Part shown: piece after piece, positions 45,685-60,890 of the stretch | Layout of the letters: the number at the start of each line of letters is the position of its first letter | How positions within the stretch are numbered: position 1 is the first letter of the stretch | Assembly: GCA_011033025.1 (NCBI GenBank) | Contig: WFMF01000161.1 | Span: 1-64,000 of the forward strand | Source of the DNA: Beroe forskalii | Lineage: Eukaryota > Ctenophora > Nuda > Beroida > Beroidae | Direction: 5' to 3' | DNA length: 64,000 nucleotides | Notes under the pieces: model-generated | What the model was told of the DNA's origin: nothing | Database searches by the model: none | The model's input: the letters and a program-made list of their open reading frames with translations, nothing else | Position numbers and translations under genes: made by a program

Positions 45685-45830
45685 AGGGGGCTGGCAAGCC
45701 CCCCGCGGCGGTTTGCGAGCCCGAGGGCCCGAAGGGCCCGAGGGCGAGCATTGGACGGCGGACCTAACAGTGCGAGGGCCGAGGACCCGAAGGGTCCGAG
45801 GGCGAGCATTGGACGGCGATTCTAACGAGA
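45685..45830. repeat. GC-rich duplicated block with ggcccgaagggcccgagg
   Basis: The unit cgagggcgagcattggacgg occurs twice about 70 bp apart, each preceded by a GC-rich inverted stretch (gagggcccgaagggcccgag, gaggacccgaagggtccgag). The two hairpins have gaa in the loop and compensating stem changes. Confidence 0.7.
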
Positions 45831-47460: not shown

Positions 47461-47620
47461 GACATAAGCAGCTCGAGCCAGCAGTCCACAATCTTAGCTT
47501 ACATTACATACCTGAGCTGATCTTTGTGCTCGAGCCAGCAGTCCACAATCTTAGCTTACATTACATACCTGAGCTGATCTTTGTGCTCGAGCCAGCAGTC
47601 CACAATCTTAGTTATATTAT
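47461..47620. repeat. Tandem repeat, about 61 bp x 2.7
   Basis: The unit gagccagcagtccacaatct, tagcttacattacatacctg is repeated almost without change. Confidence 0.95.
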
Positions 47621-47692
47621 AGGGTGAGCAGAATATAAGTATGCATAAGCATGCATAATATGCATGTGAAAACTGAGGGAACCTTATAATAT

Positions 47693-47871
47693 AGAACTAT
47701 AGGTCGAAGGAGTAACCTAATACCACATATATATAGTGAGCACGAAGCGTGAACTATATATAGACGCATTATTGGCCGAAGCGAAGCTGAGGTCAATAAT
47801 GGTTTGTTTTGGACGAGGCGAAGCCGAGTTCAAAACAATGTGGTATTAGGTACTCCTGAGACCTATGGTGA
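47693..47871. mobile_element. Cloverleaf hairpin element E1
   Basis: Terminal inverted repeats (ctataggtc-GA-aggagta and tactcct-GA-gacctatgg) enclose three hairpins: 47730-47760, 47767-47801 and 47806-47836. Each has an outer stem, GA, inner stem, GAA loop, inner stem, GA, outer stem. Examples: cattattggcc-GA-agc-GAA-gct-GA-ggtcaataatg; gttttggac-GA-ggc-GAA-gcc-GA-gttcaaaac. No ORF. The target duplication is unclear. Confidence 0.85.
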
Positions 47872-48212
47872 TATTACATGGCGAAATAACATAAATTATG
47901 TGGTGGAAACTCATTAGAAATAAGAAACATAGCGTCTCATAGTTGTACTTGTATCAGGCGTCATGGGCAGAAAAAGTTTGAATGATCTCGCCGGTAATTA
48001 CATTTTTGTCGGGCCTAAAAGACATGTACACATGTGTCGGTGGAATGCATATTATTATGCCATGTAGCAATTTACCACAGTGAAGCAAGATAACGGCGTC
48101 ATTTGAACAGCCTGTTGTTCATTGGAGTCTCAAATACCACAGAACTCGAATATCTGCGTTCCACCAAAATTATTCAAATTGAATTGGCACTTAAGGAGGC
48201 AGGTAACGTTAC

Positions 48213-49991
48213 TAGGGTTTGCATTATCGGTTCAAAAATTTTTATCGCCGATAACCGATAATTTTTCATAATTATCGCCGATACCGATAATTATCGCCGA
48301 TAAAATGTTAACCTACTTTTGGCCGTTGTCATTGACACAATTTTCGATGAATTGATCAGCAAGTGTAGTGAGGTGTACGTCTAATGTACTAACTTACGTG
48401 TCGGCATTATATTATTTACCCTGACGCCATTTACTTTTTATTTGAAAGGTTGCAGAGTACATGATGAAGTAATAAGGTGTTGTCAGGGCAAAATGGTGTC
48501 GGTGTAAAGTGGTGTCGAGTTAATAATAATGCGTTGTCAGGGTATTAAAGTGGTGTCAAAGTAAAGTGGTGTCAGGGTTAAATTGTGTATTGGTTAGGAG
48601 ATGCCAGGGTTTAGTGAAGTGACGAACTACTGAGATCAATGTTCTACAGCCTGTCGAGCTACGATTACGAAGCCGATCTATCGTTCTATCAGATCTATGT
48701 TCTGCGATCTAGTAATTAGGGTCGGTCTCCCTAAGCTTTTTACTATTAGAGCAATAAAGAGCCTGACGCCTGAAAAGTTCAACCAAGGAATTCGTCGATT
48801 TTAACCCGAAATTAATCAAAATGCGCTTCTAATTCCAGGGCATTAGGCATAAGTCGAAATGAAAACTTTAGTCACTGGGGTGAAGTCAGGTAAAAATGGT
48901 GTCAGTGTGACGTGGTGTCGAGGTAATGCGTTGTAATGGAATTGAATGGTCCCTGCAATGTAAAGTGGTGTCTTGGTAAAATCGTGACAGGGTTAGGTGT
49001 CAGGGTGAAATGGTATCAGGCTAAATTGGTTTCAGGTTAAATTAGTGTCAGGGTAAACTGGTGTCATGATGAAGTGGTGTCAGACTCAAATAGTGACGAA
49101 GTATCAGGGCACAATAGTGCCAGGGTTACGTTGTATCAGGGTGAAATGGTGGCAGGGTTAGACTGGTGTCAAGTTAAAGTTCTGTCAGGGTAAATTGGAG
49201 CCTGAGTCATATCCTGGTTTCGGGGTGAAGAGGTTTTGGGGTTAAGTGGTGTCAGTGTAAATAGCTTGTGGTGTCAGAGTAAGTGTAACTGTGAAGTGGT
49301 CCCAGTGTTAAGTTGTGTCACTGTCAGAACAAAATGGTGTCATGGCTAAGTAGTGTCAGGTTAAGAATTAATGCCAACAGCAAGAGAAAACTCGTTTCTA
49401 GGAATACTGCCTGACATGGTGAAGTGATGGCAGAGTAAACTGTTGTCATGATCAGCTAGGTTAGGATATAGTGGTGTCCGGGCAAATGGCTGCCAGGAAA
49501 AATGTACTACAGTGAAACGTGCCATCAGGGCTTAGTGGTTTCGGGGTGAAGACTGAAGTGTCATAAGGATTGACTGATATCAGGGTTAAATGCTACCATG
49601 ATAAAGCGGTTACCTGGCAAGGTGGTGTCAAGTTTTGCGGTTTTGTGGTGTCAGGGTAAAGTGGTGTAAGGGCGAGATATTGATGTCAGGGAAAGCTGTC
49701 GTCAGGACCGGGTGGTTTCTGGGTAAAGTGGTGTCAGATTTGAATGGTGTCAGGGTTGAGTGGTGCCATAGTAAATTGGTGTCAGGGAAAAGTGAAGTGG
49801 AAATGCGATGTTAGTGTTTTAAGTGCTTTAAAAGTGCAGGCGTCGGGTCATGCCTATTCTTCAAAAGATGATAAATTCTACCCATTAAATTATCGGTATT
49901 ATCGGTCAGATTTTATCGCCGATAACCGATAATAATTTTTCGCGTTTTATCGGCGATAATTTATCGCCGATAATATCGGTTGCAAACCCTA
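48213..49991. mobile_element. hAT-like non-autonomous element, 1.78 kb
   Basis: The ends tagggtttgca and tgcaaacccta are inverted and flanked by the 8-bp duplication aacgttac (48205-48212, 49992-49999). Subterminal regions hold repeated palindromes ttatcgccgataa / ttatcggcgataa (four or so per end). The interior (about 48470-49830) is a degenerate minisatellite of aagtggtgtcagggt. No transposase. Confidence 0.93.
48470..49830. repeat. Degenerate gtggtgtcagggtaa minisatellite inside the hAT-like element
   Basis: Dozens of decayed copies of a 17-20-bp unit. Any ORFs here are by-products. Confidence 0.85.
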
Positions 49992-50011
49992 AACGTTACT
50001 CGTTTTAAGTC

Positions 50012-50275
50012 TGCGAACAAATGTAGGCAACTCACGTCATAAACTTTCTTATTGAATCCATGACGATGCCATCATTGTAAATACCCTATCAACTCTTGGA
50101 AAATCCCATAACATGGGGTTATAGGATCCGAACGACGCTAAAAAATATGTAGGCAACTCACGTCATAAACTTTCATATTGAATCTACGTCGGATTCATCA
50201 CTGTAAACACAGCTTATAGGGTCGGAAACGACCACATAACATGGGGTTATAGGATCCATCCCGACCCTATAATAT
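50012..50275. repeat. Two direct repeats of about 130 bp
   Basis: Both begin tgtaggcaactcacgtcata, aactttc and contain cataacatggggttataggat; offset about 135 bp. Confidence 0.9.
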
Positions 50276-50324
50276 TGAAATAACCCGATGTATATGGTTG
50301 CAAATAAGGGCTTATGAGCCATGT

Positions 50325-50510
50325 AATATAGAACTATTAACCGAAGTAGAGATTAGTAACATGATATATGTTGCGAGCGCAGCGAGCAACATATATATGC
50401 ATTATTGTACGAGGCGAAGCCGAGTTCAATAATGATGTGTTTTTGTACGAGGCGAAGCCGAGTTCAAAACTAGATGTTACTTATCTTTACTGAGGTTAAT
50501 AGTGATATTA
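50325..50510. mobile_element. Cloverleaf hairpin element E2
   Basis: Outer repeat actattaacc-GA-agtagagattagtaacat with atgttacttatctttact-GA-ggttaatagt. Hairpins: 50364-50396 (loop GCA, stem atatatgttgc), 50400-50434 and 50439-50470 (inner ggc-GAA-gcc). Same design as E1, with stem sequences differing in the first hairpin and in the outer repeat. Confidence 0.88.
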
Positions 50511-50519
50511 TATGGCGAA

Positions 50520-51248
50520 ACCACTCATTAAACGTAGTTAAAACATGGATAATAATGGTCTTTCGATGGGAGCTGCAGACTTCCGGAAGCAAGAGCCATC
50601 AAGGTAATCTTATTCACAGGGCTGATTACATTTAGTTTTTAAAGTATTGAATACTCAAATATGCAGTACAGAATTACGTAGTTACGCAGTTACAGGCCGA
50701 ATCAAAATGAATTACCACGGATTATAGTTAGATAATTCGTTCATCTTCATGGGTTGAACCGGTAACTTAATGAAGCGATACACGTTTTCCCCTTCACCTG
50801 AACATCATAGTAATTCTTCAAATTCCATAAGAATTAGAGTCGGGTATCACATATTATAAGGCAGCTTGGTCGGTACTTTTAATTCGCTACTTCTACGCAT
50901 GATAATGACGCTATAAGAGTCTACCGCTAATTTGTTTGGCAGAAAGTTTTAACATTCTAATTGTGGTTCATGATTCATGTCGATTCTCGATTCTCGAGTA
51001 CATAGTCATGTCAAACCGTGATACCGGAAATAAATTGTAAACCCGGATGAACAGTATGTGTTTCAATCGCCGTTTGCTTTCATGGATTTCGTTATTAAGA
51101 CTGATTCAGAGCAGCTAATTTTTGACTCCTCTGACTTTGAGAAGCTCTAATTGCTGTTGCGACGAATGTGATTCTGCAGCCAAGATTAAGATTGTTTAAT
51201 TGAAAAAAAATACTCTTAATGTCGTTGGGGTTATTCGGTCGATCTGAG
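50520..51248. other. Intergenic, nothing recognised
   Basis: AT-rich, no coding signal or repeat family identified. Confidence 0.4.
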
Positions 51249-57925: not shown

Positions 57926-58359
57926 GCAATTAACAATGAGGCCGCAGGCCGAATTGTTCATTGACACGATTAAAGCATTAACTTCGGTCGATAGACACTA
58001 TTCAACTATGAGCCAAACGCTAAGCTGGACCAAAACCACAAGATTTGGTGGGTGTATATTACGGGGAATGGTTAATCACCTCAATAAGGCTCACCTGACA
58101 GGCAGAAGGCAGGTGATATCCAGCAGGTTAGAATGGTAGATCTCTGGGTCAAAGTCTCCAAACTTCTCTTGACACTGCAACAGTGATAGCTTTGTTAGTT
58201 AAAAGTTTTAATTTCAGATTATACGTAAAACTAGGAAACCCAGTCACAGAAACCTTCTACCAGCACGGGTCATCCAAAGGGTCATACTTTAAACCGCATA
58301 AAAATTAATGCTCACCAATTGATGGAATTATTGACATTCAGTGAACTATTATAAAGTAC

Positions 58360-59876: not shown

Positions 59877-60536
59877 TATATGTACTTTAGCGAAAGACCA
59901 GGAATTAACATATTATCTCTATTACATACGAATGAAATGAGTATGTAATAGGATATAAATATTGAGTAGCTTGCTACGAAATATTTATATCAAATTTATC
60001 ATATGACAGGCGAAGCCTGGAATGTGATAAATTTAGATATGTTATGAATGGCTTTGCTAAAGTAATATAATAGTCGAACGTGTTCTGCATATTTTAACAC
60101 CTACTTTATTCCTGTGAATAATATTCATCTCGGGGCTATCAATTACATAAGGATACAAAGAAGACGCATGATAAATCGGCATGTGAATTAGCAAAGATCG
60201 ATTTTATATGTACTTTAGCGAAAGACCAGGAATTAACATATCTCTATTACATACGAATGAAATGAGTATGTAATAGGATATAAATATTGAGTAGCTTGCT
60301 ACGAAATATTTATATCAAATTTATCATATGACAGGCGAAGCCTGGAATGTGATAAATTTAGATATGTTATGAATGGCTTTTGCTAAAGTAATATAATAGT
60401 CGAACGTGTTCTGCATATTTTTAACACCTACTTTATTCCTGTGAATAATATTCATCTCGGGGCTATCAATTACATAAGGATACAAAGAAGACGCATGATA
60501 AATCGGCATGTGAATTAGCAAAGATCGATTTTATAT
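59877..60536. mobile_element. Cloverleaf hairpin element E3, duplicated
   Basis: Two nearly identical about 330-bp units in tandem. Each has outer ends tgtactttagcgaaagacc with a complement in ggctttgctaaagtaata, and three hairpins (first unit): 59921-59949 attacatac-GA-at-GAA-at-GA-gtatgtaat; 59953-59990 with inner gtagc-tt-gctac; 59992-60034 with inner caggc-GAA-gcctg. The right arm of the giant inverted repeat lacks them. Confidence 0.85.
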
Positions 60537-60890
60537 AATGTTCATGTAGAGACAATATAATATTGATGCGGTGTTGGATTTATCAAATAGAGCTCATGTA
60601 ATAGATGGGTTTTTCATTTAGCATGTCTATAAAGTGTATGTGAGAGACGCTAGATATCAAGGGATGTAATTCGCAGAGGAGCTATGTTAAATATACGTGA
60701 GACTATTATATAATGTTCATGTAGAGACAATATAATATTGATGCGGTGTTGGATTTATCAAATAGAGCTCATGTAATAGATGGGTTTTTCATTTAGCATG
60801 TCTATAAAGTGTATGTGAGAGACGCTAGATATCAAGGGATGTAATTCGCAGAGGAGCTATGTTAAATATACGTGAGACTATTATAATATG
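60537..60890. repeat. Tandem duplication of about 177 bp
   Basis: The unit aatgttcatgtagagacaat, ataatattgatgcggtg is present twice; absent from the right arm. Confidence 0.93.

Follow-up and report, generated by a model that had tools for sequence, protein, structure and literature searches.

Cloverleaf-bearing mobile elements of Beroe forskalii with complementarity between the 5' structure and the 3' end

A stretch of 64,000 nucleotides from the ctenophore Beroe forskalii (GenBank assembly GCA_011033025.1, contig WFMF01000161.1, positions 1 to 64,000; hereafter the window) contains two neighbouring inverted repeats, each enclosing exactly three hairpins. A first-pass annotation made from the sequence alone named them E1 and E2 and took the repeats for the bounds of cloverleaf-folding elements. 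What are these structures, and of what are they a part? We find that two related non-autonomous mobile elements follow each other head-to-tail in the window and that E1 and E2 form their 5' ends; each terminal inverted repeat is the 5' end of a longer element and not its boundary. To the earlier description, which lacked all three, we add a pairing between the 3' end of each element and a guide sequence beside its 5' structure, an RTANTA target and the mutual nesting of the elements. The earlier interpretation is thus partly supported, being right in kind and incomplete in anatomy. We propose, at a probability of roughly 0.55, that these non-autonomous elements move as folded single-stranded DNA, with cleavage set by the guide and an HUH-type enzyme supplied in trans.

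Anatomy and abundance of E1 and E2

Comparison with genome copies was used to place the elements, all of whose features lie on the + strand of the window. E1 occupies 47692-50328, from a 5' TAGAAC to a 3' CCATGTAATA, its boundaries being taken from E1 copies in loci L009-L028. The 5' end including the cloverleaf region covers 47692-47886, and the element goes on to 50328. Its cloverleaf (47696-47869) has an outer stem with GA opposite GA around hairpin 1 (47728-47762), hairpin 2 (47767-47801; an 11-bp stem with GA/GA and AGC-GAA-GCT) and hairpin 3 (47804-47838; GA/GA and GGC-GAA-GCC). At the 3' foot of the cloverleaf lies the guide, TATTACATGG (47872-47881), the complement of the 3' end, which itself consists of a short hairpin, GGCT-TATG-AGCC, followed by the terminus (50304-50328). 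E2 follows without a gap and is cut short in the window (50329-51246); full copies elsewhere measure ~1,030 bp and end in ...GAGCCATATAATA. Its cloverleaf (50333-50503) again has an outer stem with GA opposite GA and three hairpins (50364-50396, 50400-50434 and 50440-50470), with the guide TATTATATGG (50506-50515) complementary to the E2 3' end CCATATAATA. The three enclosed hairpins and the GA oppositions of the outer repeats are therefore as the annotation had drawn them.

The cloverleaf-bearing E1 copy of the window is longer than its own DNA, which amounts to ~850 bp (47692-48212 and 50000-50328). The rest is a later insertion with a target duplication, lying outside the element family (48213-49991, given without strand); it ends in TAGGGTTTGCA and TGCAAACCCTA, has 11-bp inverted ends and is flanked by the 8-bp duplication AACGTTAC at 48205-48212 and 49992-49999. 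From these ends and the 8-bp duplication we take the insertion to be hAT-like. Its interior is a degenerate 16-bp repeat (family D1).

Across the 216 Mb of genome searched, exact patterns recovered 191 5' ends and 184 3' ends of E1/E2, and reversed control patterns recovered 0. Copy number was taken from these patterns because DNA similarity searches scored the best 40 of 375 and the best 40 of 487 candidates. Listings covered about half of the ends (100 of the 191 5' ends and about 100 of the 184 3' ends). A same-strand 3' end lies within 20 kb of 79 of the 100 listed 5' ends, one 3' end being counted for two, and the paired ends span 603-711 bp (25), 831-917 bp (22), 979-1,080 bp (16) or longer distances (16). 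With these numbers of ends and pairs, the 5' truncation of SINE/LINE-type elements is not seen, and no A-tail was found by eye at 45 E1/E2 right ends. We found no coding capacity in copies of normal size; the listed open frames of at least 140 residues lie outside them or straddle an end. Rfam and tRNA searches of the window returned 0 matches.

Two unusual arrangements were noted among the copies. At L021 3388-3585, an E1 copy stops at the cloverleaf foot behind a full E1, giving one body between two cloverleafs. At L030 2529-2707, a unit with a 3' terminal hairpin (AGGGCTTATGAGCCATGTAATATCATGTATTTGTAT-like) stands in several tandem repeats behind an E2 copy, like strung terminators.

A putative guide at the foot of a covarying 5' structure

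The relationship between the guide and the 3' end extends well beyond E1 and E2. In seven of the seven families with both ends placed, the 3'-terminal decamer complements a decamer at the 3' foot of the element's own 5' structure; complementarity is 10/10 in the families except E3, which has nine Watson-Crick pairs and one T-G. The pairs of 3' end and guide are, besides those of E1 and E2, CCTTATAATA and TATTATAGGG in E3, CCTACTAATA and TATTAGTAGG in E3b, GGTGCATAAT and ATTATGCACC in F1, GACTATTATA and TATAATAGTC in E4, and GACTACTATA and TATAGTAGTC in E5. In every family the guide starts 0-4 bases past the stem (in E1, two bases past the outer stem on its 3' side), and the longest pairing run of each 3' end, of 10-11 bases, is located at the guide. 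Relatives differ in a compensatory manner in guide and 3' end (E1/E2, E3/E3b and E4/E5). It is this constant position at the structure foot, together with the compensatory differences, that gives the rule its weight. The seven families represent four lineages, and the count leaves out G1, E6 and a hairpin at 57932, whose ends are not placed.

The ends of E1, E2, E3 and F1 were defined from the flanks of at least two copies. That of E4 was found through a search for the complement and is supported by the point at which flanks diverge in the window and in L038. A nearer E4 3' end, at 60536, was rejected: it matched 9/10 at the wrong place, whereby the rule would have held in 5 of 6 families, and E4 continues to 60885.

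The stems of the 5' structure vary in sequence while pairing is kept, as the annotation had claimed. In an alignment of 14 E1 and 17 E2 5' ends (31 distinct sequences carrying both end motifs), 91.3% of cells pair across 74 pairs, compared with 34.6-42.6% when partners were slid by 1-3 columns. Both sides change in 16 of the 74 pairs, 10 of which belong to the outer stem. Against 500 column shuffles, the number of paired cells, the number of cells with a double change and the covariation score all exceed 500 of 500. Several outer-helix pairs drawn from E1 are broken in 17 of the 31 sequences because E2 pairs that region in its own way.

A common hairpin rule, stem-GA-stem-GNA-stem-GA-stem, had also been proposed. 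Scanned strictly, the 64-kb window yields 9 matches and each of 10 first-order Markov shuffles yields 0, so the pattern is commoner than in shuffled sequence, as the annotation expected; yet only three of the six E1/E2 hairpins pass (those at 47767, 47804 and 50364). The second and third hairpins of E2, which we read directly, fail through a T-T mismatch in their outer part. Hairpin 1 of E1, already named the weakest (as 47730-47760), is missed since its second stem has decayed in the window copy; it is intact elsewhere as GCGC-GAA-GCGC, in two variants found in 13 and 4 other loci. All 9 strict hairpins are read on the + strand; among them are two E4 hairpins that are each present twice. If the loop is set to GNA, no other non-complementary dinucleotide pair is as frequent on that strand as GA/GA (9; next best 2). 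The TC/TC stem count (58) represents the same stems on the opposite strand and, as a control, carries no strand information. When the loop was left free at 2-5 nt, the window and loci L009-L060 gave 23 distinct GA/GA hairpin sequences, some of them near-identical, compared with 0 in one Markov control; the loop is GNA in 16 and is closed by a C-G pair in 22, and four E4 hairpin variants carry a TT loop.

The C(GNA)G loop is a very stable DNA mini-hairpin, and tandem GA is a stable sheared motif in both DNA and RNA. Under DNA folding, the E1 tandem junction reaches -60.9 kcal/mol, with a shuffled mean of -19.8 (z -12.7), and E2 reaches -43.4 kcal/mol (z -9.2). Folding is more favourable for the strand with GA and GNA than for the opposite strand (-60.9 versus -52.5 for E1; -43.4 versus -39.3 for E2). 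This better folding, taken with the DNA mini-hairpin loops, favours single-stranded DNA of the GA/GNA strand as the working form, though without proving it. The suggestion in the annotation of a single-stranded form served by a nuclease-transposase remains the best reading; what it left undivided, DNA or RNA, now leans towards DNA.

At least five more families in the window and the fetched loci use the hairpin design (E3, E4, E5, F1 and G1). The proposal of a family built on one hairpin design therefore holds, whereas the cloverleaf does not make up the whole element. In the window, an E3 3' remnant (47609-47691, + strand) ends in ACCTTATAATA, and E1 begins exactly behind its TAATA. Directly upstream of this remnant, 47471-47611 is a 57-bp tandem repeat of two full copies and one partial exact copy. 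E4 occupies 59882-60885 (+ strand), with its guide at 60066-60075 and 60392-60401 and its 3' decamer at 60876-60885; it contains two internal tandem duplications, of ~326 bp (including the cloverleaf) and ~175 bp (in the 3' part). Exact 5' strands number 361 for F1 and 125 for E4 in the genome, with 0 for the controls. G1 is another repeat family with G+C-rich hairpins and the same GA/GAA grammar (window 45719-45745; L022 1897-2001).

Several inverted pairs of F1 5' strands are found at distances of ~490-670 bp, for example C1:1159353(+)/1159887(-), C88:50383(+)/51036(-) and C115:1868(+)/2342(-). Such pairs are too close for two whole ~407-bp copies, and some F1 forms perhaps carry the 5' structure at each of their ends. 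A pattern search for other families with the E1/E2 cloverleaf foot found one site, and a search of phages and viral contigs found no relatives. Elsewhere in the window, closely similar open frames form three pairs 9.6-15 kb apart (18670-19326/33773-34441, 12604-13365/22225-23025 and 42587-43171/52613-53056), which suggests segmental duplication or an assembly artefact. The window also encodes an imidazolonepropionase with protein matches of up to 83%; among the 120 best rows, those from named animals reach 53-60%, in line with a host that branched early among animals.

Insertion site, proposed mechanism and rival explanations

Alignment of flanks, recommended in the annotation as a way to find insertion sites and target duplications, revealed the former and none of the latter: insertion is immediately 3' to RTANTA, and the target is not duplicated. 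The window contains an empty site, GTATG-TAATA^GGATATA. E4 hairpin 1 (59918-59952, with a second copy at 60243-60277; + strand) carries the empty form GTATGTAATA^GGATATA of the E1/E2/F1 site, which is thus empty twice in the window and is occupied by E1, E2 or F1 in other loci. The host of this site is itself a repeat, so that independent events may be fewer than loci.

Among 49 distinct E1/E2 left flanks, 31 end in TAATA and 18 in TATTA, TACTA, TTATA and similar cores (distinct meaning distinct over 30 nt; window E2, the second E1 of L021, L038 and L048 merged with identical flanks). The right ends carry TAATA in 42 of 45, counted where they match ...CATRTA; L047 (CCATA-CTGAA) is one of those not covered by this pattern. 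Of 16 paired insertions whose left core differs from TAATA, 15 have TAATA on the right and one (L037) has identical cores on both sides. As the left core varies and the right core is TAATA, the left belongs to the target and the right to the element. We therefore rejected a target duplication, the left and right 5-mers differing in 15 of the 16 informative insertions. With element-end targets removed, 43 left and 37 right flanks give the consensus RTANTA^N5TA (the first copy of the tandem in L041 being paired with the right end of the second): A at -1 in 43/43, T at -2 in 42/43, T at +1 in 22/37, T at +6 in 31/37 and A at +7 in 30/37. No clear centre of a palindromic target was found in this logo.

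How might such elements move? A strand transferase of the HUH type, most likely Helitron-related, would recognise the cloverleaf in trans. The guide would pair with the element's own 3' end and also with TANTA at the left flank, such that both cleavages would fall directly after (TAN)TA. The ends could then be joined into a circular junction reading CATGTAATA-TAGAAC, in which the stem would become continuous: in the predicted fold of a junction or tandem, the 3' end followed by the 5' end pairs with the 3' strand of the outer stem followed by the guide, with an internal loop just past the cut. The same guide would capture a target TANTA, on which this junction would be reopened. A guide-matching sequence stands at the end of every element, so that elements would insert behind one another and into one another's hairpin arms.

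Tandem neighbours are indeed present: for 7 of the 100 listed 5' ends, the base in front is the last one of another E1/E2 element. Mixed neighbours comprise E2-E1 (L012), E3-E1 and E1-E2 (window) and, both with two extra bases, E1-E3 (L024) and E2-E3b (L049). Neighbours from different families cannot stem from the rolling circle of a single element. They are expected if the 3' end of an element, being the best guide match, is a preferred target.

A number of observations weigh against guided, HUH-type transposition as set out above. The TA of the target at +6/+7 is unexplained by the guide, and guide-matching preference beyond TANTA is weak (T at -7 in 24/43, A at -8 in 20/43), so that a protein could read the target; moreover, position -6 faces a C of the E1 guide, yet E1 targets carry A there in 15/22 and G in 6/22. 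Decamers with a complement elsewhere in the element are not rare in themselves (6-13% of the internal ones), and 1-25 of 500 shuffled 3' decamers do as well within the element. The E3b end rests on homology with E3, and the 3' end of E5, and partly that of E4, was picked with the complement in view. The E1/E2 alignment consists of two clades and mostly one split, so independent changes are few; the count of double-change pairs is reached by 122 of 500 shuffles, and the value for further pair types is lower than in all 500. Finally, no enzyme is linked to the elements: the IS200/IS605 enzyme Y1_Tnp (PF01797) has 0 matches in the genome while 5 of 14 control genomes are positive, the Helitron Rep and tyrosine-recombinase matches could not be tied to element ends, and a comparison by eye places all listed E1/E2 ends more than 15 kb from any Helitron match.

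The annotation had looked to a co-distributed HUH or tyrosine-recombinase gene, and no such gene proved to be tied to the elements. Profile searches of the genome returned 20 matches to Helitron_like_N, several in long open frames, and 7 partial matches over the cut-off to Phage_integrase (PF00589; profile positions 91-170, best E 4.7e-7). IS110 DEDD (PF01548) and serine resolvase (PF00239) gave 0 matches, with 4 of 14 and 10 of 14 controls positive, respectively. Since 20 Helitron_like_N matches stand against 0 for Y1_Tnp, IS110 DEDD and resolvase, a Helitron-derived HUH activity is the most economical candidate for the enzyme. On C359, a Helitron Rep has an unpaired E1 5' end 15.1 kb upstream of it in the same orientation, which is a lead only; Helitron flanks were read up to 2.5 kb around one coding region.

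Larger, autonomous copies were also considered. The paired ends span 1.4-6.8 kb in 16 of 79 cases, and the five examined in whole or in part (window E1, L020, L048, L052 and L055) yielded no autonomous copy. None of the 60 longest open frames (at least 140 residues) lies inside window E1 or in L020, L052 or L055, and an open frame of L048 was taken by eye for a retrotransposon fragment and had no Pfam match. Eight open frames near copies contained no Rep or recombinase; they matched RNase H/RVT_3 and an IS1595-type transposase, two below-cut-off rows for one protein being ignored.

Could a different enzyme account for the same ends? A Crypton-like tyrosine recombinase might recombine the circle junction with the target through a folded single strand, as at integron attC sites, where recombination occurs at the border between a paired box and an unpaired spacer. 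The absence of a duplication, the short imperfect direct repeats TANTA/TAATA at the ends and the 7 Phage_integrase matches would suit such an enzyme; the junction stem would provide a paired box, an unpaired spacer (AGAA/TG) and a second paired box, and the two TA boxes of the target may mean a dimer. We nonetheless consider this unlikely. Exchange is at a single point, with the target base kept at -3, element bases after -1 and no heteroduplex spacer, and the integrase matches are partial, none of them placed near element ends. The attC system differs further in being bacterial and in having no guide to a distant end.

It is similarly improbable, in our estimation, that these are ordinary non-autonomous Helitron-like (HINE/Helentron) elements with odd ends, the cloverleaf being a lineage-specific 5' ornament. 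Such elements would explain a 3' hairpin few bases from the terminus (here GGCT-NNNN-AGCC, ending 8 nt before the E1/E2 end), insertion without duplication between an A (43/43) and, less strictly, a T (22/37), the tandem copies and the 20 Helitron Rep matches. The excerpted text of PMC4067079 and PMC4778049 makes no mention of the guide rule. The canonical Helitron termini, 5'-TC and 3'-CTRR, are replaced by TA (TAGAAC in E1/E2) and AATA (TAATA in 42/45). Nor do we see the TT target and subterminal inverted repeats of Helentrons and HINEs: the site reads RTANTA^N5TA, repeats common to both ends are absent, and the 5' stem pairs with a segment ~170 nt inward from the 5' terminus.

An RNA transcribed from the 5' structure and pairing with the 3' end and the target, in the manner of a bridge RNA or a retro-element RNA, would make use of the same guide matches to donor end and target core, and GA/GA pairs stabilise RNA too, but this is very improbable given the dominance of C-G-closed GNA triloops (16/23), a DNA mini-hairpin motif, the 0 IS110 DEDD matches and the little 5' truncation (79 of 100 listed 5' ends paired; 191 versus 184 ends).

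Relation to known systems

The logic of the elements is like that of IS200/IS605 and REP, while the enzyme test of IS200/IS605 and the defining Helitron and Helentron ends fail. Published systems are compared here as far as excerpts of the cited sources describe them. On the proposed reading, the likeness to IS200/IS605, exemplified by IS608, lies in folded single-stranded ends, a guide that pairs with cleavage sites and target, and a circular junction (PMC5934647). It extends to insertion exactly 3' of a short target that is kept in the left flank without duplication, and to the element's own cleavage sequence at the right end. Complementarity beside the end hairpin is present in the seven families, with cleavage-site selection by it putative. 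The IS608 guide comprises four bases at the 5' foot, and complementary bases added 3' of the hairpin extended targeting (PMC5934647); this engineered extension is on the side where the guide of the present elements lies. The differences are an animal host, a multi-hairpin 5' cloverleaf with tandem GA, a single 3'-foot guide of 10-11 nt in place of the two tetranucleotides found at the 5' foot there, and no Y1_Tnp match in this genome.

REP sequences and their TnpA-REP enzymes offer a second parallel: these are high-copy palindromes without protein-coding capacity that are recognised in single-stranded form, a conserved stem mismatch occurring in some, with guide-like bases beside the hairpin (PMC8266576). 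REPs, however, are 20-50 nt long (PMC8266576), compared with elements of ~180-1,030 bp with a defined 3' end here. Helitrons, Helentrons and HINEs share with our elements a eukaryotic host, the lack of a duplication, a 3' hairpin and protein-less derivatives, and the Helitron Helraiser forms circles with head-to-tail junctions (PMC4778049, PMC4067079); they differ in ends, target and 5' architecture, and no autonomous partner was found here. Replitrons are likewise eukaryotic and small, with short direct end repeats; they use an HUH enzyme, the type proposed here, and are described in a review (PMC10741241) from green algae and spore plants with target duplications of 2-8 bp. Here there is no target duplication, left and right 5-mers differing in 15/16. 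Literature searches limited to open-licence PubMed Central found no such element. We put forward, tentatively, that the elements form a separate eukaryotic mobile-element class, with several families in this one animal genome, in which the transposon DNA would carry its own base-paired guide: the foot of a single-stranded 5' cloverleaf, stabilised by tandem sheared G-A pairs and GNA loops, would pair with the 3' end of the element and with the target core and so set both cut sites, served by a strand transferase undescribed in animals.

If the guide works as the covariation suggests, these would be animal elements that choose their cut and target sites by DNA-DNA pairing, as IS200/IS605 elements do, with an own-end pairing of 10-11 nt rather than four and on the side of the hairpin that was extended by engineering in IS608, again as far as the excerpts describe it (PMC5934647). 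The strict hairpin grammar offers a route to the enzyme, namely whatever binds d(C-GNA-G) hairpins with tandem G-A pairs. Were the reading true, the mutual nesting of the families would be explained and a testable insertion rule would be at hand; it would constitute natural DNA-guided insertion in an animal and would link bacterial single-strand transposition with the rolling-circle elements of eukaryotes.

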